NCBI GenBank assembly: GCA_015179125.1
Contig: WHVA01000061.1
Location: 62,001 to 126,000, forward strand
Direction: 5' to 3'
Origin: Gautieria morchelliformis
Taxonomy: Eukaryota; Basidiomycota; Agaricomycetes; Gomphales; Gomphaceae
DNA length: 64,000 nt
Shown: positions 8,415-60,270 of the stretch, piece after piece
How the letters are laid out: the number at the start of each line of letters is the position of its first letter
How positions within the stretch are numbered: position 1 is the stretch's first letter
The notes under the pieces: model-generated
The model's database searches: none
What the model was told of the DNA's origin: nothing
The model's input: the letters and a program-made list of their open reading frames with translations, nothing else
Translations under genes and position numbers: made by a program

Positions 8415-9265
8415 TGTCATGACGCGTTTATTTCCCATACTCAGATGCTCTCCCATTTCTCACTCCACCTTCGTGTTCGTTCCGATCGCCCTTGCCATGT
8501 TCGGCAACCGATCCTCACTGTTCGTGCCATTTACCATAGCCATGCCGTCGAAGCACAATTGACGTCCTTGGACTGACTTGGCAGTCATCGCTGGGCCTAT
8601 CACCTCCTCTGCTCGACCCTCTTTCGATGGTGTTCCTATGATCGGACTGTCGTGACTTGTGTATTTCCTGGATCTTGTTATCCCCATTTCCCCTTTCGCC
8701 ACTTCTCCCCTATGTCATCTCCGTTCGCCCTTCCTCGCATTTCTCCAAACAGCTATTTGCTGCTCGCGCATTTCGCCAGCAGGCACGCCATCAAATACTA
8801 TCGACACCATTTACCCGGCATGATGGTTCATCACTAACCCCATCATCTTCTTAATCTAACCCCTGTGGGTGTTCGTATGGCCAAAGTGTGTTCGCAGGGT
8901 GTCCCTTCCATAGGTCGTGCGGGATCAACCCAGTAGACGAAGAGTCCGTGCAGGGTAGCATGTATGCGGGTCCCAAGACATGGTTTTGGACACAAGTGCC
9001 TTCGCCACCTTTACTCTCCGTCGTTTCATGTTGCACTCTTCCCTCACTCTATTGTATGTTTATTCCATCTACTTAGTATCATGACTGTGCACCCCTATCC
9101 AACCCTGACTCACAATGGCCTCTTTCCTATTTGCTGATGCCTTACGAGCATTCGATATAAGTAGTTTACATTCGCATGTATATTCTCCAGTTCAATTATC
9201 ATACGTCGTCCATCTTGTGCAAACTTGACCTCACTGTGATCATTGTTTTGAGCCTTCTCCTGGAG
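8415..9265 (+). repeat. LTR-like dispersed repeat, copy A
   Basis: This block of about 850 bp starts TGTCATGACGCG and matches, in reverse complement, 59366-60270. The homology begins abruptly at TGTCATGACG in both copies and fades near TGGAGA here and TGACA there, as expected for solo LTRs of one old family. The copies are visibly diverged. No target duplication was found. The open frames inside are short and not conserved as protein. Confidence 0.5.
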
Positions 9266-9835
9266 ATTTCTATCTTCAACCAGAAGAGGACTTACGCATC
9301 ACTGGTGAGTTCTCATACCTCATCTTCGTTACCTTAGCCTTCGAACTATTTTCTGTGCTGACGGCGAAGGGATTGTCGCTACTTAGACAACCCTTCCATG
9401 ACACCTTGCACGTTACATCGTCAAGTGCCACAGGCTACTTCGCTACGACTGTAGATAGGGCGAGCTCCGCTCGGGCAGCCCTCTTATCTTGTGAACATTT
9501 ATTGGTTCACCTATTCGCCGAACGGCATACTTATTCGCACAAGTCATTCAGGCATTCACTGTGTTCACTAATACACGATATTAACGCCTAAAAACCAATC
9601 TTGACAGTCACCTACCTAGGATCTGACAATTATCCCGAACCCTCCTGGTTTTAGGGATGAGACCGAGCCCACATATATAGAATTCAACGCAGCGGCTGGG
9701 TAGCAGCTAAAAGTCGGGACAGAAATGTGATAACGGCGTGACAGAAACTCATCCACAGTGTGACAGAATTGGAGTTGCACAGGGACAGAAATAGAATAGT
9801 GGACTTGACCTAAAAGCAATTTTTCAGGGACACTA
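9266..9835. other. Intergenic stretch, no gene seen
   Basis: It contains only short open frames with no recognised homology. Its right part, at about 9600-9850, precedes the transposase fragment and may belong to that element's end. Confidence 0.4.
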
Positions 9836-18127: not shown

Positions 18128-18160
18128 AGAGGGGGGTGATGTCAGGGTTCATGTGTTTCC

Positions 18161-18340
18161 TTCCACAAGTTTCTATTTCCTTCCATGAGTTTCTGTCACC
18201 TTCCATCAGTTTCCATAACCTTCGGTCAGTTTCCATAACCTTCCATCAGTTTCCGTCACCTTCCGTCAGTTTCCGTAACCTTCTACGAGTTTCTATCATC
18301 TTCCACGAGCTTCCACAACCTTCTACAAGTTTCCACCTCC
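18161..18340 (+). repeat. 20-bp minisatellite, nine units in exact register
   Basis: Nine consecutive 20-bp units of the form ttccatcagtttccgtaacc start at 18161, 18181, 18201 and so on to 18321, with no indels. Units differ by substitutions only. The array sits just after the transposon tail, directly below the gatgtcaggg word. Confidence 0.92.
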
Positions 18341-18342
18341 CC

Positions 18343-18680
18343 TATTATATAAACCTTGCCAGCGCTATAAGACTGTAGCCAGTGTGGTGGCATTTCCTCA
18401 GCTTGATCTCTGAGGATACCCACTACACAGGCAAGTCCCCATGTATCTATCGTTGGTAGACTTATAAACTGAGGATACCCACTACACAGTTGGTTATTGT
18501 CCTTGTATCGGCCACTATCTCCTTGAGTATCTTTAGGTTGTGGCTTCGTCATTAGTGTTGCCCTCACAGGGTGACGCGATCTGAGGGAAACGGATCCTAC
18601 CCTCAGATGCACGAGACAATTCTTTTATGAAGGTAAATTTAGTTTATTTGATACTTAGTTGCTATACTAATGTCATAACA
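18343..18680. other. Spacer with a 20-bp direct duplication, no gene seen
   Basis: The word ctgaggatacccactacaca occurs at about 18411-18430 and again at about 18468-18488. An ATATAA word sits near 18346. No coding region was recognised. Confidence 0.45.
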
Positions 18681-27298: not shown

Positions 27299-29526
27299 AT
27301 GCTTTGGACCAACAAATTCTATTTGGATGCACTCGATGTCGTTGTCATTCTCATGGCACCTTTGTACTGGCTTCTCTCAATGTTGAAAAATATTGGCAGT
27401 AGAGATAGCCACTTACCTCCTGGCCCTCCCACCCTACCGATCATTGGAAACATTCACCTTTTACCGAGGACATTGTTGCACATTAAGTGAGTTCGTGTTG
27501 TTTTATTCTGAAGAATGAACGGATCACTGATCTCCTATGGCTTGAGGTTGACCGAGTGGGCAAAAATATATGGCGGCATCTACTCTGTGAGTCGAGGAGG
27601 TCCAGCTATGCCCCTGCTGACAAAGTAGCATTCTCAGATTAAGCTTGGCCCCAATACAGCTATCGTGCTCACAAGTCCTCGGCTTGTGAGAGAATTGATG
27701 GACAAGCGCAGCGCCTCCAGTCCTGATCGACCGCCAAACTACATGGCTGAGCTAATCACTGGAGGGATGAATATCGCTCTCTCAAGATACGGTAATTATT
27801 CGATAAGCTTACCGATGCCATGTGACATCCATATTAATCTCTCTCAGATGCGCATTGGAAGCCGCTGAGACGCACTGTCCATAATTTATTGACCCACAAG
27901 GCATGCGAGAGACACCTGCCGATCCAACAGGCAGAAGCTACGCAACTCATGCATGATATACTCACGCGACCTGAGGTATGGTATTATAAAAACCATTTTC
28001 AAGCCGCTCAGAACTTACCACCCGCAAAGAAATTTTACACACATATCAAGCGATTTTCTACTTCTGTGATAACATCGTTAATGTTTGGAATTCGCTGTCC
28101 TACTTATGAGTCCTCGGTCATAACAGAATTCTACCATGTCATGGAATTGTGGCAGATTGCCATGGAACCCGGTGCCCATCCTCCTGTGGACCTTCTTCCC
28201 TTCCTCCGGCATATACCAGAACGGTGGGCGTCGTGGAAGACGCTTTGTCGGGACGTCCGTTCTCTGCAACGTAAATTATACTTCGGACTCCTCGATCAAT
28301 GTGAAACCCGTATTCGGGAAGGCAGACGCAACGGCTGCTGCATGGAGGAAATTATAGATAAGGGCGAGAAGTTCTCTATGAACCGAGAGTTGTCTGGGTA
28401 CGCTTCATATTTATCTGACGCGGACCAGGTCCAGTAATTTTCTCGGATATAAGATATCTCGGTGGCGCCCTTCTCGAGGGTGGTTCAGAAACGACGTCGT
28501 TGTTTCTACAGAGTTTGATACAAGCTCTCGTGGTCTTCCCCGAAGTTCAGAGGAAAGCCCACGAGGAGATCGACCGCGTGATTGGGTCAGACCGCGCCCC
28601 CAGATTGGACGACATGAAAAATTTGCCATACGTCCAAGCCATTGTGAAGGAGGTGAAGTTTTAGGAACTATTTGCATGAGGAAAAATCCTCATGAAGTGA
28701 TATTAGACTCACCGGTTTCGCCCCGTGGCACCACTGGCACTTCCTCATGCATTACTTGCCGAAGAAAAGGTGATATTTGTTTAATATATTTACAAGGATA
28801 TGTGGCTGATATCGTGCCTGCAGATCAATGGATATGTCATTCCTGAAAGAACAATAGTTTTTATGAACATATGTGCGTCGATAAGTTATGCATCATTCTC
28901 AGGAAATAACTAATGGGACCACCAAGGGGGGATGTCCCACGACGAGGGAGTCTACCAAGACCCTGAGGTATTTAATCCAGATCGCTTCTTGACCTCGGAA
29001 TACGGAACCAAAGACCATGTTGACGACTTCGGACGACGGCACAACTTAGTTTTTGGAAGCGGTAGAGTAAAATAATCCTTATATTATCAGTCGCCGCCTC
29101 CAAGTTCTTATTAAAAACCGCTAGAGGCTCTGTCCTGGCATACATTTTGCTCAGAATTCTATCGTAAGTACTGGCGGTCAAGCGTATCCTCGTCTCAAAC
29201 ATTATTATATCTGCAGTATCTCAACACGATGAACTTATTGTGGGGCTTCAACTTCGCTGAAGCTGTGGACCCGTCCACAAACATCCCCATCAAGATTGAC
29301 CTCGGCGACTATATTAAGGTATATTTGGGATAAGCATTCTTCTCGCATTGGCTGACTATACTTTGCTTCCGTTTAGGGTGTCCTCACCGGCCCCAGTTCT
29401 TTCTTATGCGACATAACAGCCAGGAGCCCAGATCACATTCATCTCATCGAGCGCGAATTCGACCGGGCTAAGGATTCATTTCTGCCCTATGAAAAGGCAG
29501 ATTCACGGGTGAACACAACCAAGTAG
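27299..29526 (+). CDS. Cytochrome P450 monooxygenase, 12 exons, about 539 aa
   Basis: Exons are 27299-27486, 27547-27586, 27638-27791, 27848-27975, 28030-28397, 28454-28652, 28707-28769, 28824-28872, 28927-29066, 29125-29163, 29217-29318 and 29377-29526. All introns are GT-AG and 1620 coding bases close in frame. An N-terminal membrane anchor (VVILMAPLYWLL) precedes the hinge LPPGPPTLPIIGN. The I-helix reads GGSETTS (about 28479), the K-helix ETHR spans the 28652/28707 junction, FNPDRF follows, and the heme loop FGSGRRLCPG spans 29066/29125 with its Cys ligand intact. It resembles basidiomycete P450s of the O-methylsterigmatocystin-oxidoreductase type (ER membrane, needs P450 reductase). Substrate unknown. 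It converges on the Ppo gene, about 585 bp away. Complete and apparently functional. Confidence 0.92.
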
Positions 29527-30110
29527 CTTTTTGTCTCCGCGTCCATCAGTGGGATTGCCAAGAGTATGCATTAATTTTGTGAGGACATATTTGCCGTCAA
29601 CTCCACCGCGGTTGTAAGTTCTGTAGGCCGGTCAGAGTTGAACGAATGAAGGGGAAGGTGGAATGTTACGTATTCGTGTATGATAGGATAACGATGGTAT
29701 CTAACCAATACCCAAATTAAAAGTCAACACAAGTATCGATTTAATAAGTACTAGTATCGAGCTCAAAATAAATCTAAGAGATGTCCTCATCCATGATTCG
29801 ATAGCGTATGCTAATACTTTTTGGGCCAAGGACACAAGTCCTTCAAGAACCCTCCTACCAAGCAGTTCGAGTGAGTTTCCTCGGACCTTTCACAAGTGAT
29901 GCGGTAGCCAAGAGAATGTTCCGAAATCCGTAGCAATGAAAGGCTTGGAGAAAATCGTTAAGCATTATCTGACATTTGTTCTCATTCATAAACAGAAATA
30001 CAGAAGTTATTCCGTCTGTTATATGTTCAACTTGATTCCCGGGATCCCGTTTCGCGGATTCTTATATATCAAACTGAAATACATCCATGTCAACATGTCA
30101 TCATCTGTCT
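29527..30110. other. Intergenic region between convergent P450 and Ppo genes
   Basis: This shared 3' space is AT-rich near 29700-29760. No gene recognised; the frame at 29936-30121 has no support. Confidence 0.4.
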
Positions 30111-33100
30111 TTAGAAAGTAACACGCACCTGAACATGCATTGAACACGGCCACGACGTCGATTGCCCTTTGCTATCAATATACATTTTTTGAGGAATGCC
30201 GTGTACGTTTTCGGTGAAGCTACGGGAAGTTGTTATTCATGGTCAGTCATGGACAGGAGATATCTCCTTACCGAGTCAGCTGTCCAGGCGCACCAGGCGC
30301 CCTCCTCAAATTTATTTGGCCGAACACCGCACGAAGGACATGCGCCATTGTCTTGCTCGAGAATTCCTGGTCCAGTGATCTAGATTCAGAGTTAAGATGG
30401 ACTGCTGTGTGTGCAGCTAGTATACGAACGAGTGCGCTCCCGGTACGAAGGACAGCTCAGTTTGCGGTCGTTTTGGATTCACAGCCAAAGCATCGCCTCC
30501 TGGCTGGCCCTCCTGCAGCCAGCACATAAGACAATCGAGAAAGCAATTAAAGCAGCGAGGGCCTACATCCACGAGAGCTGCAGCCAAATTAACAGAGACC
30601 CTCTCGCCGCCTGCCAGTTCCGTTGTCAGTGCATTGGTATTCGCGTGGGCTTCTCTGAGCACACTTGCGACCTGTCTCAAGTATCATCAGCCTTTCAAAC
30701 TTGAGTCATGCAGTGGAGCATTGAAGACTCGCAGGAGGATCAAGACCTGGTCAATAATCAGTCAGATTAGGCTTACACCCCAAGGAATTGTACATACGTA
30801 GCGCCTCTTGCACATATCCTATCAACAGGTTTTCCGTTTCGTCGCTGACAGGACGTCTAGCTAAGGAAACAATGGTAGCCTTATCATTCTTCCGTGAAGC
30901 GTCCAGATAAAAATTAACGACGTGGGTCATGGCTATGTCAGACAGATCAGGAAAGAATGCTGCGTCGCGACGAGGATCGTACCATGAGCCCAATTGGCGA
31001 CGGAGTTGATCGCAATGCCAAAGAGGTTGTACACAATGTCCCCATCATCGTCCAATTCGCCATGTCTGCTGTTGAGCATTTTATAGAGAGCATCCTCGAC
31101 CTCATGTTTGCCATTGTCGCGGGTGTGCTGACCAAGAAACCTGCCAATAATCCCTCGAGTGGAAGAGAACTATATCCTGCCAGTTAGGCACCGGCGACAG
31201 GAAAACGTCAGAAACACCCACGACAGACGTCGCCTCGCTGATTTTCGCTGTTATGTCATCTAACAGGGATTTCGCTGCCTTGCGAGAATGGTAGTCCAGG
31301 AACCACGCATTCACAGGCTCATTATTGCGGTAGATGTATCTTGTCCGTAACTCAATGTCAGCACTATAGACGGTGACACAGATGAAACGTATTCACGTAA
31401 ACAAGATGGCGAAGTAACCATATAGCTCCTGTTCGGAATATTTACCGTTGGGTTTTTCCTTCGTCCGGAGTGGTAATCCCACCTGTGATAGGAGTTAGTC
31501 CCCACGACGAGAAACTCCTGGAAAGCTGGGACATACAACACGCGTCGTGACCCAATATAAGGGCACGATATTGAGGACTTCGCGGACGATGTCGACGGTC
31601 CTCGTGGTCGCTCTCGCAGGTGCATACGACTTTTCGGCGAAGAGTTCTCGGGTCATCTCGTAATAGTACCGGGCATGCTCAGAGTTAGCTGTAGAAGTGA
31701 AAAGCAGACTCTGGATCTAATAACAAAAATATACCACCACATTGACTATCCACCCGCTGATCTTACAATTTACACGTACCGTGCCACGAGTCCGTCTGTG
31801 CTTGATGCTGTCACTAGCACCAAAGTAAAACCCGTGGTTGTCGGTGAGACATTCTGCGAGTGCTTCATACGGCGCAAAGAATGTTGTTGTATTCGTGACG
31901 ATTTTCTTTACAGACTCGAAACCTTCCACAGGAATGATAGCAGGAACGCCGTGGGGCTCCGACCAATCATACCTCTCGATCATTCCCGGCGCGTTTTCAA
32001 CGTTCTCGCGCATGCGACTCGGGACAATGAAGGGGGAATGGGCATATATGGACTTTGGCGTATAATGCCGTGGGAGGGTGCGGAAGAGGAGTTTTGTAAG
32101 CATACCGCCAAGGGATCCGCTATCATCCGTCGTTTCGACGTCTTGATATCCCCATGAGGTGAGATTGAATGCTAGACGCGAGGTTAGAGGTCAGGAGCAG
32201 TGGAAATACGATGGGGAAGAACGTACGCGTGTATTCAACGGTCAAAAACCTGTCTCCTCGAATAAGAGCAACCGCATCCGCTAGAATCGAGCGAGACATG
32301 GTGAAGCCTGAACACAATCCAGACCCTGGGATTGATGGTCTGTGCTCCTCTGCTTGCACCCCAACCTGATCAAATAGTTACATAAATATGACTGCTGTGG
32401 AGATAACCCACGGATCACGCACATATAGCTCCATATTGTCAATGTTGTGATACAACTGTTCAGCTGCTTGCTACAAGTCACGGATGAGCGAAAAGCAGAT
32501 CATCCCAAGAAATACAGCACAAACACTAATTTCATCATTGGAATTCCACTCCTTGAAGCTTGTATATGCTGAGCGAGGACACCGTCAACAACATCTAAGT
32601 TCTTCACAACAGCTCGCACGCACGCTTCAAGCCGAGGAAAGACCTGAACTCATTCAGCGAACACACACCGCATGCTCGCGCCTGCTGTACACTCATGGTC
32701 TCGAGGATTTTAAACGCGGCTGGGATACCACGTGCCCGGAATGCATTCGCAGAGTCGGCAGTCGCACCCTGGAGAATGCGAGCAAGATCACCATCATCAA
32801 ATCGTCCAGTCGTCTCGTCTCGTCTTAAGCTGGCACATGCACTCCACTTAGTATTGAACCAGCAACAAATTGGTAAAGATGGACGTGCCGGTTGAATGTC
32901 CAAACCCTAACAATGGTACCTTGGGAATATAAATCCCTCCCAACAGCTTCGGCAAAATCTCTAGCCGTGATCTAAATGGTTTCACGACCTGAGTATGGGC
33001 GGCTGGCTGACTCGGATTAGAAACAAGTCACCTCATCATATGTCTTATTTGGGAATAATCTTTTCCAGATATCATCAAGCCATTTCTCCTCTTTTGTAGA

Positions 33101-34246
33101 GGTCGTCGCATGCCACTGTAGAAGAAATTATAGGGTGAGCGTCAGAACGAACAGCGCTCGGACGGCGGTAAAGTGCTAACTCGGTGCAGCAAGCTGGATT
33201 CTACAGCGCAGACATTGCCCCTGCCTCGTGGGAAAATGTTGTGATGAGAGTCTCGTATAGGCTGCGATACATACGTGCCTCAGCATTGCTGATGGATGCA
33301 GGTTGAATATACTACCCACGCCTAACGGCTTGAGATGCCATGGGGACAGGTCGGGAGCCATACGCAGGATGCACCCAACATAGTCATGCATGACCACCTG
33401 CAATCATAGGTGAGATAAGCGTTATAATAAATCCATTAGTAGATACGGCTATTGCCTGCATAAATGCACCGCTATAGGATAAATGCGACTTCAATATTAA
33501 GTTAATCCACAAGGACATCAAACGCACCAATTAACGAGTCTCGCCCTATTAAAGATTTCATCATCTTGTCCCCTTAGCTTGTCATTGTCAGCGGGAAATG
33601 GATTGGTCAGATATGTTCCTCGTTCGTTGATGTTGAGAATGCGAGTAGCGACAAACTGAAAGATGCGGAGTGAGTGCGGAGGTTCAGGACTAACAGTACG
33701 AAAGGCGTACGTTGTGGTTACGATTGAACACAATCAAGAGCGCAGCAACTGAGGGAGGCATACCCAGGAGCCTCATGTCGGCGAACACATCATCCCAGAG
33801 TTGCCCTGTCCCATCAAACCTCCGCACCTTATTTTGTTCTATATGATCCACGCCATACAGCGGACTAAGGTCCAAATAGCTAGACGTATCGTTTATGCTC
33901 CTGTCGTTGCTGTTCGTGCGGAAGAGCGTATGAGCGATGAGGTTCGCAAAGGCGAAGAACAAAGAAGAAATCCCGGTCGAATTCTCGACCTGTCGGTCGC
34001 GTTTGAGGAGCATGTCAAAAACTAAGCCAGGGTCTGGGAGCGTTGACAGGGGCGCGACATGCGAGGATGCGACTAAGCGCGCATAAGGTTTGTGGGCGGC
34101 CCCGAGTTCGGGTATCAGGGGGTTGTTGCAGCTGCCGTCAGCCTCGCGGTAAGCGAAGTTTTTAAGACCTGGGGAACTTTTGGACGGCATGGAGTTCACG
34201 AGGGGAACCAAAAATGTGGATGGTGGGCGAGGTAAGTCTGTATGAA
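30111..34246 (-). CDS. ppo: Ppo-type fatty-acid dioxygenase/P450 fusion with both active sites altered, N-terminus missing
   Basis: The peroxidase (DOX) half starts at an acceptor at 34246 (TDLPRPPSTFLVPL). It includes FANLIAHTLFRTN with the distal His, NDTSSYLDLSPLYG, FNRNHN and INERGTY. Exons read include 34246-33711, 33655-33528, a 16-nt microexon 33471-33456, one from 33397, one ending at 33181, and one from 33115. The proximal motif spans the 33181/33115 junction as SLLHRWHATTS, where the family has LLYRWH, so the catalytic Tyr is His (codon 33186-33184). A linker (GRFDDGDLARILQGA) leads to the P450 half; the last exons are 30983 and above, 30932-30779, 30675-30567, 30512-30430, 30379-30272 and 30219-30111. 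The heme loop reads GAHSSLDQEF where active enzymes have a Cys (HRCLG). About 110 N-terminal residues are absent. Normal role: 8- or 10-dioxygenation of linoleate and isomerisation to oxylipin signals. This copy is probably catalytically dead or changed. Exons between about 33050 and 31000 were not all fixed. Confidence 0.8.
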
Positions 34247-34256
34247 CTAGATGTAG

Positions 34257-34779
34257 TCAGGTATACAATCGAAGAGCAGGTACAGAGATATTGGATTGAC
34301 CAGAATGCGTTTCGGACCAGTAGTCTTCGTCGCTGTCGACGGGGCTTGGTAACTTGTGATCGGCCATGTGGGTATCTTGGTGGTGCTCGAGGCTGGACGC
34401 CACTGTAAACGCTTTGTTGCATCCGGGATGACTGCAAGTGAAGTCTGGGAGACAAATCAATAAGAATAGCTTACACGAGACAACAAATCTTACGTTGTTC
34501 CTCTTTGTGTGATCGCACATGGATCTACAAAATGGCACAATCAGGCAGATAACCGGAAGACGTTAATCACGTACATGTAAGGCATTGGATCCGTGGAACC
34601 AATCGCCGCACAGATCGCACTGGTACCTTTGCGCCGTGTCTTCACTAGACGCATGGCCAGGCGGCAGGCCGGGGACCTCAGATGCAGACTGATGTGTAAC
34701 CCTTCCTTGAGTATCAGGATAAGCGAAAGTTAACTGGTGTGATGCATCAGATGGTTTGCCAGAGTCTCGCGCGCCCGTT
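34257..34779 (-). CDS. Two-finger C2H2 zinc-finger protein (5' end unresolved)
   Basis: Exons 34779-34575, 34524-34494 and 34444-34257 join in phase through two GT-AG introns. They encode two classical fingers. Finger 1 is CDLCGDWFHGSNALHIHVRSH without gaps (split here as CDLCGDWFHGSNALH plus IHVRSH), C-x2-C-x12-H-x3-H; finger 2 is CSHPGCNKAF...SLEHHQDTH, C-x4-C-x12-H-x3-H. A short acidic tail (DSDEDYWSETHS) closes it at a stop at 34257-34259. Upstream the frame continues as Ser/Asp-rich sequence to the acceptor at 34780; the first exon above that is not identified. It is likely a nuclear DNA-binding regulator. It ends only 11 bases above the first recognised Ppo exon, so it may be a separate gene or the front of a fused transcript. 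Confidence 0.65.
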
Positions 34780-35106
34780 CTACACGGCGGTCAGGATAAA
34801 CGTAGTATGACATGTTTGTTGTAACGCTCACTGTCTAGGACATATGGAAGCCACTAGAAGCTGTCAGATGAAGGCGACATAACAATGCGTCTGGGCTGTC
34901 ACACACTTCCATGCATTCCAATGTTGATCATCTGAGGAGATAATCTAGAGACAATACTCTCTGTATCTGTGGCCTGGGTTGCTCCAGTTTCCTTGGACCA
35001 AGACTCATTAGGAGATCATCGATGAGATTTAGCAAGCGAATACCTGAAGAAGGTCAGAAAGGTTGAAGTCATGCATAATAGCAATTTCAGCACTTGAGTT
35101 CTGTGT
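34780..35106. other. Region above the C2H2 exons
   Basis: It may hold the first exon of the C2H2 gene (a frame starting MSLGPRKLEQPRPQ near 35010 is a weak candidate) and the 3' end of the next gene. Nothing firm. Confidence 0.3.
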
Positions 35107-36278
35107 CTAAGAATTAGCTTCGCCCCTGTTCAGACAACACAAAGGAAGATTGACATCAAAGATATAGTCAAAAAATGGCGTTAAAGGATCAACAAACTTC
35201 AATGAAGTCAGCTTTGATGAAAGGGGGATTGTGATATGACAAACTGGAGGGTCAGGATCCATCAGAATCTCAGAATATGAATCTGAGCTGCTACTATTCC
35301 ACTCCGCCTGTAAGTCTTCTTTATCAGACCGGTGTCCCGAACCAAGGTCATGGGGGCCGGCAGCCGCTCGTATCACTCTGGGAACGATGCGTGCTCGCCT
35401 CTTGATGCGGTAGCCTCGCAGAAAGACGCACTGGTTGTATTTTGGGAATGAATCCATAGGATGAGTGTTATATGTTAGTAGTTGAAGATCCCCAGGCGGG
35501 TCTCGAGGTTGAGGACCAAAATTACGAGACACAGAGATGGAAGAATCCCATGTGCCCCAAGCCGCTGTTGTGGCAGAGCCCACCCCAGGTATACCAGCAG
35601 AAAATTTAATGCCAGCTTCTTTCGAGTCGGAAGAGAAAGCCACCATGTCAAAGTCACGAGTCATGTCGTGTCCGGTTATAAACAGAATATCCTCAAGCTT
35701 CACCCTATGACCAAGCTTGTTTGCATGATCATGCCAAGACTGGTAATGTTGCCTCATGTAATCCTCGAACCGTCCCCATCTTTCAGCGTCTTCGCAGAAA
35801 GTCTGGTATTTCGTCATTAAGATTGCGCCTTTTGTACTTGATGTCTTGAAGTTAAATGTTGTCCCAGCGTCAATGCACGTTCTACGTTGGTTGATTTTCA
35901 TGCTCAACGTGCAATTGTCAACTAATTGAAAGAACGTACGCATTAGCCGAAATATTGAACGCTGCTCCTATCTGCTTAATATATCTGGCATGAAGTGCAC
36001 CAGGTCCACGAGGCTGATCTTTGGCAGTAGGACCGGGTTCAAAGGGCACAAAGTCCAGGGGAACATCTTCGCCTAGTATCCGACCCCCCTGCGGCATCGA
36101 GGCGCTGAAGAGGAGATGAAATCGACCTTGTCGAATGTAGCCAACATCACCTATCTTGATTTTGTCATAATTATCCAAAGGGGCAGGTTGCCTGTGAATG
36201 ATGATCGATTATACTGACTTGCAGACGTGACATAGGTCAATAGAGGGATTACCATAGTGGCAAGCCATGACCCAACAT
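35107..36278 (-). CDS. Basidiomycete-specific family protein, function unknown, about 350 aa
   Basis: Exons 36278-36253, 36191-35940 and 35881-35107 join in frame by GT-AG introns (total 1053 bases). The start gives MLGHGLPLW, a stretch seen near the N-terminus of a large Agaricomycete family. It is followed by IKIGDVGYIRQGRFHLLF, TKYQTFCEDAERWGRFEDYM, LFITGHDMTRDFDMVAFSSD and PKYNQCVFLRGYRIKRRAR, then RAAAGPHDLG. No signal peptide or membrane segment is seen. The family is abundant in mushrooms and often found near NLR-like or transposon genes; its role is not known to me. The start is uncertain: an ATG at 36390 opens a frame (MQTATIHRAWLTYTESDLLV) that could be an extra first exon. Confidence 0.7.
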
Positions 36279-36399: not shown

Positions 36400-37640
36400 A
36401 TCAACCCCTGCGTGAGATGGAAGTTTCTCAAGCCTTGAAACATCTTGAAGCGCTTTTATCAAGCGACGCGCTCGTAGCATAGCTTCGGTAGCGCCGCTGT
36501 TAAAAATAACTTCTGATTTACTGCCCGAACGTGTATGAACTTTGCATAGGCAGTTAGAGATCGTCGCCTCCGGGTACCGAAGACTCCAGGCTATGCATCT
36601 AGCATAGCGTACGTCAAGCATCGTACTGTCTCTGCAAAATGCACATTTAAGCACCAAATAAGATGATATGCAACTTAGAGACTCACTATACTTACACTGC
36701 ACAAAATATCAGTGTAATCAATACAAATTAATGGTCAGCGGCAAGCATCTCCGACTTGAAGAGTGCACTGCTTCACGAATGATATTCTAATCTAGTACGC
36801 GGAAGCGACAGCATAGCGATATTGGTTGCATTAAGCAGGGATAAGTGTGTTAGAGGCTATATCGTATCGATACTGTAAGATGAGGATTACTCAACGTTCA
36901 TGCCCCAAGTCTGGCGTGAGGGACATGTACGAGAGGTTGGGGCGGTTCAGGACACGTTCAAGAGAAAGGCCTCGAGCCCTGGGGACGGGCGTATGCACCG
37001 ACTCGCTTCGGAGCGTGTACCATGCCTTGTAACGGTATGCCTGAACTGAGCATGGGCAATTTAAAGCTGGACCACCCTATTGACACGGTTACATAGTACT
37101 TAGATCATCAGTCTCAGGTGTACTCACCTCCTGCAAAATGGTGATAGGACACTGAGGAGGAAGACGGCTGATCACACGGTGATCGCGTGGAGAAGGAGAA
37201 TGGGACACGGAGAATCGGCACTAAGTACCAATTCGAATACGAATGTGCTTATATACTACGCCCATAGCTTCTGGATTTTCTCATCCGTACAACAAGCCGT
37301 CCTCGAAGTTAGCGTTACAAATACACTTGCAGCGACTTACCGTAAGGAGACAATTGTTCATGTCCTTTTGGTCCCTTTGCAATATCCTCCACGGGCGGAG
37401 GGCATTACAGTAATGGTGCCGGGATTCCGGATCCGTGCACGACGTGCCGGCACGTGACGTACCGGTCATACATCTTCCTTGCAGTGAACATTTATTTATC
37501 AAGCAATGCTAAACGAAGTATGCGATATCGAACCTGCCTGTTTTCCCTTCCCGGAAACTCTGGTACCGCTGCGTGTACACCGGTATTCTAGGCATTGCCA
37601 ATTAATTGAGAGCACAGCACAGAGGGTATACCATAGGCCG
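36400..37640. other. Intergenic stretch, no gene recognised
   Basis: The minus-strand frame 36397-36702 and plus-strand frame 37179-37457 have no homology and odd composition. No repeat structure stands out. Confidence 0.4.
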
Positions 37641-38110
37641 TTGAACGATGTCCGCTCGACCACAGTGCCATAGCATTTCCAAAGGTTCAGGTCTGCTCCT
37701 GCCTCCAGCAGCAGCCAAACTGTCTCCGCGTGACCTTGGGATGCCGCAGTCTGCATGTAGTGGACTGCCACATGTTCCCCGCCCACTGAGTCGACATCTT
37801 CTCCCGGAAGGTGGACGATATCCTAGCGGCCTTTGAACGCCGCAGCCTGTAGTGCAGTACCATATAACCCTACCTGCATGTTCACATCTGCTCCCTTCGC
37901 AAGTGGCATGCGAAACGAACTCAAAGGAAGGAGGGTGCCACTGGCCTGTAATGTCCGACTACATTTATGTCTGCCCCCGCCTCCAGCAGGAACTGTATGA
38001 CCTTCGAGTGGCCTCCGGACGCTGTAGCTATAATAGTACTACCATACGTCCCTCCCATTGCGTCCACATCTGCCCCTGCTCAAGTACTAGCATCAGGAAA
38101 CTAGGTGCGA
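37640..38110 (-). pseudogene. Degenerate ankyrin-repeat relic
   Basis: The minus strand holds at least three ankyrin-like units: YGSTIIATASGGHSKVIQFL with LEAGADINV (about 38070-37960), GTALQAAAFKG with DIVH (about 37860-37800), and MQTAASQGHAETVWLLLEAG (about 37765-37690). Stops and frame changes separate them, for example a stop directly after the GTALQAAAFKGR unit. These are the C-terminal repeats of a larger protein, perhaps a NACHT/ankyrin NLR-like protein common in mushrooms. No NACHT domain is seen. Confidence 0.65.
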
Positions 38111-38245
38111 GCCGTGCTTAGGGCATTCGTAACGAGACGGTGCCATCCGTAGAGGTTCGAACGGACAGGCTCGTATACTGTGATAGCTAGCTGTATGTAT
38201 CGCTGCCCCAGGAACTAGGAGCAAGTGATAAAGGCATCTGTAAAA

Positions 38246-38340
38246 GTCAGTAAACTCCGTTTACTCTTCCTAAAAGGAATTCGGGGTTCGAAGCTGAAGC
38301 CACTGAAGTTGTCTGGCCAACCAATCCTCTCTCCCATGCA
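38246..38340 (+). repeat. Direct repeat (about 90 bp), left copy, beside the Ppo fragment
   Basis: The block from gtcagtaaactcc through ttcctaaaaggaattcgggg to ccaatcctctctcccatgca recurs at 39944-40034 in the same orientation with few changes. The pair brackets the Ppo fragment. Confidence 0.8.
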
Positions 38341-39840
38341 CTTCGCGGACGATGTCGACGGTCCTCGTTGTCGCTCTCGCAGGCGCATACGACTTTTCGG
38401 CGAAGAGTTCTCGGGTCATCTCGCAATAGTACCGGGCATGCTCAGAGTTAGCTGTAGAAGTGAAAAGCAGACTCTGGATCTAATAACAAAAATATACCAC
38501 CACGTTGACTATCCACCCGCCGATCTTACAATTTACACGTACCGTGCCACGAGTCCGTCTGTGCTTGATGCTGTCACTAGCACCAAAGTAAAACCCGTGG
38601 TTGTCGGTAAGACATTCTGCGAGTACTTCATACGGCTTGTTGTACTCGTGACGATTTTCTTTACAGATTCGAAGCCTTCCACAGGAATGATAGCAGGAAC
38701 GCCGACCAATCATACCTCTCGATCATGCCCGGCGCGTTTTCAATGTTCTCGCGCATGCGGCTCGGGACAATGACGGGGAAATGGGCATATATGGACTTTG
38801 GCGTATACTGCCGTGGGAGGGTGCCGAATAGGAGTTTTGTAAGCATACGCCAAGGGATCCGCTATCATCCGTCGTTTCGACGTCTTGATATCCCCATGAG
38901 GTGAGATTGAATGCTAGACGCGAGGTTAGAGGTCAGAAGCAGTAGAAATACGAAGGTGGGGAAGGACGTACGCGTATATTCAATGGTCAAAAACCTGTCT
39001 CCCCAAATAAGGGCAACCGCATCCGCTAGAATCGAGCGAGACATGATGAAGCCTAAACACAACTCAGACCCTGCGACTGATGATCCGGGCTCCTCCGCTT
39101 GCATCCCAACCTGATCAAATAGTTACATAAATATGGCTACTGTGGAGATAGCCCACGGATCACTCACACATAGCCCCGTATTGTCAATATTGTGATACAG
39201 CTGTTCAGCTGCTTGCTACGAGTCATGGAAGAAACAAAAACAGAGCATCCCAAGAAATACAGCACATACGCTAATCCATCGGCATTCTAAACTCATTTAG
39301 GGAACACACCCCACATGCTCGCGCCTGCTGTATACCCATGGTTTCGATAGTTCTGAATGTGGCTGGGATACCACGTGCCCGGAATGCATTCGCAGAGTCG
39401 GCGGTTGCCCTGGGGAATGCGAACAAGATCATCATCAAATCGTCCAGTCGTCTCGTCTCGTTTCAAGCTGCCGCACGCACCCAATTTATGCTAAACAAGC
39501 ACAAATTGGTAAAGGTGGACGTGTTGGTTGAATGTCCAACGCATAATGTCGGCGCATTGGGCGTATAAATCCCTCCCAACAGCTTCTCCAAAAGCTCCAG
39601 CCGTGATCTAAAAGACTTCACGACCTGAGTATGGGCGAATGATTGTCCCGTATTAGAAAGGACCTCATCATAGGCCTTGGCAGGGAATAATCTATTAAAG
39701 ACATCATCAAGCCATTTCTCCTTTCTTGTGGAGGTCGTCGTATGCCACTGCAATAGAAATTATAAAGTTAGTGGGAGTGTTGCGATGAGAGTCTCATACT
39801 GTATAGGCTGATACTCATACGTGTGTCAGCATTGCTGATG
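38341..39840 (-). pseudogene. Partial Ppo duplicate, eroded
   Basis: This copies 31578 to about 33300 of the neighbouring Ppo gene at high identity, same orientation. It contains the P450-half segment (MLTKLLFGTLPRQYTPKSIY), the linker (GRFDDDLVRIPQG), and the HTTTSTRKEKWLDDVF segment after the proximal motif. Relative to the main copy it lacks about 110 bp near 39285, about 100 bp near 39765 (including the exon with LLHR), and smaller pieces near 38633 and 38702, so several deletions break the frame. It has no N-terminus and no heme-loop exon. It cannot encode a working enzyme. Confidence 0.85.
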
Positions 39841-39943
39841 GATGACTCATGGAGGTTAAATCTAATCTATTACCTACGCCAAGAGATACCATGGTGACGT
39901 GACGAAGACCGTCACGCAGGCTAGCCGTCTTCCCGGTTTCTAA

Positions 39944-40034
39944 GTTAGTAAACTCCAGTACTCTTCCTAAAAGGAATTCGGGGTTCGAAGCTGCCACTGA
40001 TGTTGTCCGACCAACCAATCCTCTCTCCTATGCA
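39944..40034 (+). repeat. Direct repeat (about 90 bp), right copy
   Basis: It matches 38246-38340. Its last bases contain the ATG of the frame starting at 40030, so the left copy may be a duplicated promoter-proximal piece of that gene. Confidence 0.8.
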
Positions 40035-59365: not shown

Positions 59366-60270
59366 TGTCAGGACCTTTGGCTTAAGACGATGACCACGGC
59401 GAGGTCAAAGTTGCACACGATGAACAACGTATGATAATTGAACTGGGGAATATACATGCGAATGTAAACTACTTATATCGAATGCTCGTAAGGTATCAGC
59501 AAATAGGAAAGAGGCCGTCACAAGTCAGGGTTGGATAGGGGTGCGCAGCCATGATACAACATAGATGAAATAAACATACAATAGAATGAGAGAAGAGGGA
59601 GAACATGAAATGACAGAGAGTAAAGGTGGCGAAGGCACTTATGGACAAAACAATGTCTTGGGACCCGCATACATGCTACCCTGCACGGACTCTTGGTCTA
59701 CTGGGTTGATTCCGCACGACCTATGGAAGGGATGTCCTGCAAACATACTTTGACCATACGAACGCCCAATGGGGTTGGATTTAAGAAGACGATGGGGTTA
59801 ATGATGAACCATCATGCTGGGTGAATGGTATCGATCATTTTTGATGGTGTGCCTGCTGGTGAATGATGCGAGCGGCGAATAGCCGTTTGGCGAAATGCAA
59901 GGAAGGGCGAACAGAAGTGACATAGGGGAGGAGAGGTCGAGGTGGAGGGCGAAGCCGAGCGAACACTGAGGAGGAGTAGTGAAAGGGAAAATGGGGATAC
60001 CAAGGTGCAGGAGATACACAGGTCATGACAACCCAACTATTAGAACACCATCGGAAGAGAGTCGAGCAGAGGAGGTGATAGGCCCAGTGATGACTGCCGA
60101 GTCAGTCCCAAGACGTCGATCGTGCGTTTGACGGTGCGGCTATGGTAGTTGGCGCGAACAGTGAGAGTTGGTTGCCGAACATGACAATGGTGATCGGAAC
60201 GAACACGAAGGTGGGGTGAGAAAATAGGAAAACTGAGCTTCTGAGTATGGGAAATAAACGCGTCATGACA
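59366..60270 (-). repeat. LTR-like dispersed repeat, copy B
   Basis: This 905-bp block on the minus strand starts TGTCATGACGCG at 60270 and ends TGACA at 59366. It is homologous to 8415-9265 on the plus strand. TG...CA ends and the abrupt start of homology suggest a solo LTR of an old family. Flanks cgcta and gatac do not form a target duplication. No coding part. Confidence 0.5.

Follow-up and report, generated by a model that had tools for sequence, protein, structure and literature searches.

Fungal Ppo proteins of the basidiomycete type combine a dioxygenase (DOX) domain with a P450-related domain, and the properties of their closest described relatives are given here as reported in the accessible parts of the cited papers. 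In the linoleate diol synthases (LDS) a Pro-Asp-Pro triad marks the start of the catalytic domain proper, and in 8R-DOX the replacement Tyr376Phe abolished catalysis, as did Trp378Phe (PMC13049297). CcDOX1 and CcDOX2 of Coprinopsis cinerea are devoid of the P450 cysteine, and CcDOX1 is an active 10S-dioxygenase; the heme motifs are described as non-conserved in 'almost all' members of the basidiomycete DOX subclades a and b (PMC9579011). Both DOX enzymes of Cyclocybe aegerita also lack the P450 cysteine (PMC8097960). Here, we describe a Ppo gene copy carried on the minus strand of a 64,000-nucleotide stretch of DNA from Gautieria morchelliformis (contig WHVA01000061.1, positions 62,001 to 126,000), referred to as the window, in whose own numbering coordinates are given unless another contig is named. 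The copy is truncated at its 5' end and has histidine in place of the catalytic tyrosine of its DOX half. It is best read as a truncated duplicate of a basidiomycete-type DOX/P450-related gene that encodes a dead dioxygenase, a putative pseudoenzyme; this reading, with a probability of about 0.46, is narrowly favoured over that of a very young pseudogene.

The exon model was guided by a paralogue on another contig, C1, after which the exons of the window copy are numbered 3-25. As modelled, the gene runs from 34246 to 30062 in 23 exons and 979 codons, contains no internal stop or frameshift, ends at a stop codon and is colinear with C1 in frame throughout. All 22 introns have border dinucleotides identical in the two copies (19 GT-AG and three GC-AG, the latter being introns 5, 9 and 20); intron 16 is 57 nt long and exon 17 starts at 31339. 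The parts of the gene are listed below, a slash in protein or DNA text marking an exon border.

33711-34246, minus strand: exon 3, the first surviving exon, whose initial 2 bases finish a codon begun upstream; it is colinear with C1:680887-681434 (acceptor tctag) and carries the Pro-Asp-Pro triad at codon 70 and the distal His at codon 105.
33320-33655, minus strand: exons 4-6 (33655-33528, 33471-33456 and 33397-33320), with the central Tyr at codon 232 and splice borders common with C1.
33181-33261, minus strand: exon 7, the catalytic helix, ESSLLHR against EFNLLYR in C1, from comparison with C1 and with COX-2 (4ph9, EFNTLYHWH).
33032-33115, minus strand: exon 8, which opens with WH, the proximal heme His being codon 281, from alignment with C1.
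32227-32971, minus strand: exons 9-13, a stretch unusually similar to C1 in synonymous divergence and intron identity, read as gene conversion.
30430-32171, minus strand: exons 14-22, the P450-related region, colinear with C1, with ExxR from codon 840; it ends in GAHS, the last codon of which is split by an intron.
30062-30379, minus strand: exons 23-25, with Ser (30378-30376) at the heme-ligand Cys site, as in C1, followed by the C-terminus MHVQ/FDI-stop.

With 22 introns kept, a processed pseudogene is ruled out, and a decayed pseudogene with lesions was rejected because the frame holds none, in contrast to a broken copy, F, elsewhere in the window; apparent frameshifts near 32900, 32620, 31390 and 30730 are explained by introns common with C1. 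An earlier note on this DNA had placed a Ppo-type enzyme with both catalytic centres substituted at 30430-33186. Both substitutions, His at the catalytic Tyr (ESSLLHR/WH) and Ser at the P450 Cys (GAHS/SLDQEF), are read on the minus strand, where the junctions that it gave (33181/33115 and 30430/30379) are also found. The normal C-terminus that it described is present and runs one exon further, to the stop at 30073-30062; its interval covers only part of the whole gene.

Of the two substitutions, the loss of the catalytic tyrosine is the one that distinguishes this copy. The His codon at 33186-33184 (codon 278) occupies the tyrosine position, and two neighbours in the EFNxLYxWH helix, Phe and Asn, are also replaced, both by Ser. 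In two alignments the corresponding text of COX-2, for which a structure is solved, is EFNTLYHWH, so that Phe, Asn and Tyr are common to the mammalian enzyme and the fungal paralogues. The tyrosine is kept in C1 (EFNLLYR/WH) and in the more distant loci C1081 (EFNLLYR) and C151 (FNLLYRWH), the residues of the last two being taken from high-scoring segment pairs and frame translations, not from full exon models; most of exon 7 is missing from copy F. Of the four loci in this genome at which the exon is readable, the window copy alone has His, and the tyrosine loss is private to it. Because a Tyr-to-Phe replacement kills the related 8R-DOX, linoleate oxygenation has, by analogy, almost certainly been lost from the window protein. 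An alternative junction that would restore the tyrosine or the P450 Cys was considered and rejected, as the exon 7 borders are the same in C1 and a reading of the three frames by eye supplies no Tyr; in-frame skipping of exon 7 (81 nt) is possible and would take out the Tyr site. RNA editing was also considered as a conceivable rescue. No mention of a Ppo protein without this tyrosine was found in the accessible text of the open-access papers listed by the searches, which is a weak negative. Other features of the DOX half are kept: an An_peroxidase domain is present (PF03098, E 2.4e-21, 76.3 bits against a cut-off of 25, with draft exon joining), both the distal and the proximal heme His are kept, as judged by aligning the window copy with C1 and C1 with COX-2, and the central Tyr is retained.

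In the P450 half, the FxxGxHxCxG site reads FVPGAHSSLD, with its His kept, the Cys replaced by Ser and the last Gly by Asp; the heme-thiolate Cys of an active P450 half, as in LDS, allene oxide synthase (AOS) and epoxyalcohol synthase (EAS) enzymes, is therefore lacking. The residue at this site is Cys in C1081, Ala in C151 and Ser in C1, which also has Asp for Gly. Since C1 shares the Ser, C151 has Ala and the active CcDOX1 is also without the Cys, the P450 Ser is, on the residues compared, ordinary and nothing special, whereas the loss of the tyrosine is not ordinary; the Ser was accordingly rejected as a sign of decay. A P450-related domain is present at the C-terminus by colinearity with C1, stretches of which within query residues 823-937 match solved P450s with E values of 0.00025 to 0.004; a Pfam p450 match was absent for the two open reading frames (ORFs) tried from window exons of this half. 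The double loss that the earlier note considered unusual is thus special in its tyrosine part, the loss of the P450 Cys being common with C1 and normal for the clade. The note's choice of a pseudoenzyme or an early pseudogene names the right pair of options, while the 5' truncation, the losses of Phe and Asn and the existence of a Ser-bearing paralogue with intact Tyr had escaped it.

The window copy differs from C1 by 0.33 synonymous (dS) and 0.087 nonsynonymous (dN) substitutions per site, with an omega of 0.27 (bootstrap 95% 0.21-0.34). All five indels in coding sequence have lengths divisible by 3, in comparison with 22 intronic indels of which 19 do not, and the chance of retaining all 88 intron-border bases is 0.0005 at half of the 16.7% intron difference, a figure somewhat flattered by the modelling of the splice sites side by side with C1. 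Given this omega, the triplet-only coding indels and the kept intron borders, the window copy has been protein-coding for most of its separate history. C1081 and C151 served as outgroups at sites where the window copy and C1 differ, and a site was counted if the outgroup matched one of the two. In the DOX half, C1081 supports C1 17 times and the window copy 3 times (p 0.003), and C151 does so 22 and 11 times (p 0.08); a further 32 sites for each outgroup fit neither copy. Among sites at which the two outgroups have the same residue, leaving aside gap columns and those that fit neither copy, 16 of 21 show the change on the window side (p 0.027). The three helix sites contribute to all of these figures; when they are dropped, the ratio is 14 to 3 for C1081 (p 0.013) and 19 to 11 for C151 (p 0.20), and the window copy is changed at 13 of the 18 jointly decided sites (p 0.10). 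For the P450 half the ratios are 7 to 12 with C1081 and 13 to 8 with C151 (36 and 42 sites matching neither), with no difference between the copies. The DOX half of the window copy looks more loosely held than its P450 half.

Identity to C1 is uneven along the gene, amounting to 60-75% in introns 3-6 and 85-96% in introns 7-13, while dS is 0.4-0.8 in exons 3, 4 and 6 and 0.00-0.19 in exons 9-13. This pattern points to an apparent homogenisation, by gene conversion between the two contigs, of window positions 32227-33180. Its edge lies between exons 7 and 9 and is not sharp: intron 7 is already 92% identical to C1, yet exon 8 has a dS of 0.56. The catalytic exon 7 (dS 0.37) is outside the converted stretch. 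When exons 9-13 were polarised by copy F, nonsynonymous and synonymous codons numbered 6:3 in the window copy and 4:1 in C1 (8 and 3 without assignment).

At its 5' side the gene ends abruptly. The BLASTN match to C1 (84.2% identity over 4510 columns) takes in 29806-34269, with the introns and the 3' flank, and ends inside intron 2. Two features lie at this boundary.

34247-34269, minus strand: the last 23 bases of a C1-type intron 2, with a branch-like CTGAC site and the acceptor, from the end of the BLASTN match at 34269 and a shuffle test.
34257-34813, minus strand: a C2H2 zinc-finger ORF with two fingers by eye and its own stop at 34259-34257, recognized by likeness to C2H2 genes of the same genome.

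None of 300 shuffles matched C1 intron 2 as well as 34269-34247, while 138 of 300 did as well as the preceding 31 bases; 34850-34301 showed no likeness to the exon 1-2 region of C1 beyond that of shuffles (87 of 300 as good). The window copy is truncated within intron 2, and its N-terminal exons and native promoter are absent. Upstream of exon 3, C1 has exons 1-2 with up to 178 residues, and up to 250 residues before the triad compared with 69 in the window copy, the start codon of C1 being uncertain in both figures. As the triad stands at codon 70, the lost part falls in the N-terminal membrane-binding region. The stop of the C2H2 ORF is about ten bases beyond the breakpoint; one of its exon ORFs reached an E value of 0.023 for zf-C2H2_4 in Pfam, below the cut-off, and the other had no match. 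A possible splice joins the C2H2 ORF in phase to the Ppo exons through a 54-nt intron (donor 34300, acceptor 34247), and translation could begin in the C2H2 exons or at an internal ATG, Met codon 19.

Besides the unbroken frame, the low omega, the triplet-only coding indels and the private helix losses, the favoured reading draws on a simple model. Its indel rate is taken from the introns, where each substitution is accompanied by 0.096 indels and 86% of the indels shift the frame; together with stops, for which the rate was simulated, this gives about 0.114 lesions per neutral substitution. The absence of lesions from exons 3-7 and 14-25 then caps the neutral distance, at the 5% level, at about 0.011 substitutions per site. 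For a neutrally evolving gene that has lost the Tyr, staying free of lesions while gaining two or more further changes in the nine-codon helix has a joint probability of 0.001 at best with exons 8-13 excluded and of 0.008 at best with exons 3-7 alone. In view of these values, and under this model, selection was probably still acting on the frame when the helix was lost, that is, in a pseudoenzyme phase. A very young pseudogene is nevertheless only slightly less probable: a rearrangement would have severed the duplicate from its promoter and first exons, selection would be over and only amino-acid changes would have accumulated so far. The truncation inside intron 2 speaks for such a history, as do the decay of the adjoining copy F and the excess of changes in the window copy where both outgroups agree and in the DOX half as compared with C1081 and C151. 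That excess, however, shrinks when the helix sites are set aside, the P450 half shows no acceleration and a neutral distance of about 0.011 at most is short for three changes within one nine-codon motif.

Several observations weigh against the pseudoenzyme reading. The truncation itself is one of them, and searches of the assembly for the missing N-terminal exons, at both the DNA and the protein level, matched C1 only; truncation may have come later than the loss of the helix and ended the function of the gene. The helix motif was picked post hoc, and exon 7 as a whole is no exceptional hot spot, since its number of nonsynonymous differences is reached or exceeded in 58 of 950 windows of 27 codons; this control makes a loss confined to the helix less convincing, as do the outgroup counts once the helix sites are removed. 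The lesion rates are borrowed from introns, the intron-border figure is flattered as noted, and the polarisation of exons 9-13 is not decisive. Conversion from C1 can have erased downstream lesions, and the frame argument was therefore redone without that stretch. Finally, the adjoining copy F is plainly dead.

The remaining explanations are much less probable. It is unlikely that C2H2 exons starting at the ATG at 34813 are spliced onto the Ppo exons to form a chimeric 1101-residue zinc-finger/pseudo-dioxygenase, with fingers in place of the membrane-binding region. A single open frame does lead from four modelled C2H2 exons across the 54-nt joining intron through all 23 Ppo exons, and the intron 2 acceptor and CTGAC site of the Ppo gene are kept, but the phase fits one time in three by chance, the donor CTG/GTCAAT is judged weak and a C2H2 relative (L033) stops shortly after its finger, so that the ORF, with its own stop, may be a separate gene. 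An assembly or sequencing error or a haplotype artefact, for which the single copy per locus in assembly searches might speak, is a very improbable source of the three helix differences: divergence from C1 is gene-wide (84% identity), its pattern is selection-like, the helix changes are substitutions rather than indels, and the sequence flanking C1 for 12-13 kb in each direction is unlike the window, three repeats excepted. C1 and the window copy were rejected as alleles because their flanks differ. Least credible of all is an active oxygenase or peroxidase that relies on a residue other than Tyr; the distal and proximal His and the central Tyr would permit heme peroxidase chemistry, but both Tyr376Phe and Trp378Phe abolish 8R-DOX, as far as the available text reports.

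Under the pseudoenzyme reading, loss of catalysis in a protein still under selection would set the window copy apart from drifting junk. The predicted protein keeps its heme ligands but not the abstraction Tyr and would at most bind heme and perhaps a fatty acid; a plausible role is that of a non-catalytic partner of the C1 enzyme. Present-day expression, if any, would depend on the promoter of the C2H2 ORF upstream or on the internal start codon. By analogy, one might imagine a dead dioxygenase joined to zinc fingers as an oxylipin or fatty-acid sensor or, without fingers, a natural allosteric subunit of the C1 enzyme, although either must be regarded as a long shot.

When a draft of the window protein was searched against the genome, the Ppo loci recovered were the window gene itself, C1, C151, C1081, fragment F and a scrap on C171. 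The scrap (C171:427785-427862, L026) has 69 bp that are 98.6% identical to part of exon 14 of the window copy. Direct repeats of about 97 bp with 89% identity flank fragment F at 38244-38340 and 39942-40034, which would fit an insertion or duplication of a fragment at this place.

38340-39865, minus strand: F, a decayed third copy, from alignment; exon 7 is mostly gone, the coding gaps are of 1, 2, 10 and 10 nt and there is a gap of 102 nt.

Tail-to-tail with the Ppo copy, a cytochrome P450 gene occupies approximately 27500-29400 on the plus strand, with the heme motif text RLCPGIHFAQNS and PF00067 matches of E 1.9e-16 on one exon and 1.2e-4, just below the cut-off, on another. On the minus strand, ORFs at 35107-36208 have no Pfam match (E up to 0.1) and occur once in the genome by DNA search, and 37600-38140 holds broken text with stops that is ankyrin-repeat-like by eye. 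The segments 8745-9606, 18140-18569 and 59379-60031 are 84-87% identical to sequence upstream of the C1 gene and are probably dispersed repeats.

C1 (L003; C1:680190-685062) is the only close full-length paralogue of the window copy in the genome. The two share the 23-exon structure from exon 3 onwards (680887-685062 in C1) and the Ser at the P450 Cys site, whereas C1 has N-terminal exons 1-2, the Tyr and a full EFNLLYRWH helix, and comprises 1160 residues from its first Met, the start being uncertain. PpoC of Aspergillus nidulans presumably keeps the catalytic Tyr. In the available text, PpoC resembles the window copy in its substituted P450 heme motif, with no hydroperoxide rearrangement there, and differs in being an active dioxygenase of the ascomycete clade (PMC9579011). 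CcDOX1 and CcDOX2 likewise combine a DOX domain with a P450-related domain that lacks the heme-ligand Cys, but keep the catalytic Tyr and oxygenate linoleate, and the motif His that the window copy has kept is replaced in them (PMC9579011). The lack of the catalytic Tyr and of the N-terminus disqualifies the window copy as a working Ppo enzyme, but it qualifies as a derived, non-catalytic relative. More important than either substitution is that it is a truncated duplicate with its frame intact. If no protein is made, it is an instructive but ordinary freshly broken duplicate, in which the Tyr loss and the truncation are meaningful and the P450 Ser is not. Should the protein be produced, it would represent a naturally occurring COX/DOX-fold member without the Tyr. 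According to the accessible text, PpoA and PpoC of A. nidulans are tetramers and the kinetics of CcDOX1 are cooperative (PMC9579011), while a heterodimer of Y385F and native COX-2 retains more than 90% of the native Vmax, the Y385F subunit being the allosteric one (PMC12756642). That subunit resembles the window protein as a COX-fold chain without the Tyr, and differs in being an engineered mutant within a dimer, the window copy being a natural gene known from its sequence. With the protein made, the pair of C1 and the window copy would test whether mushroom oxylipin enzymes employ non-catalytic subunits, as COX does.

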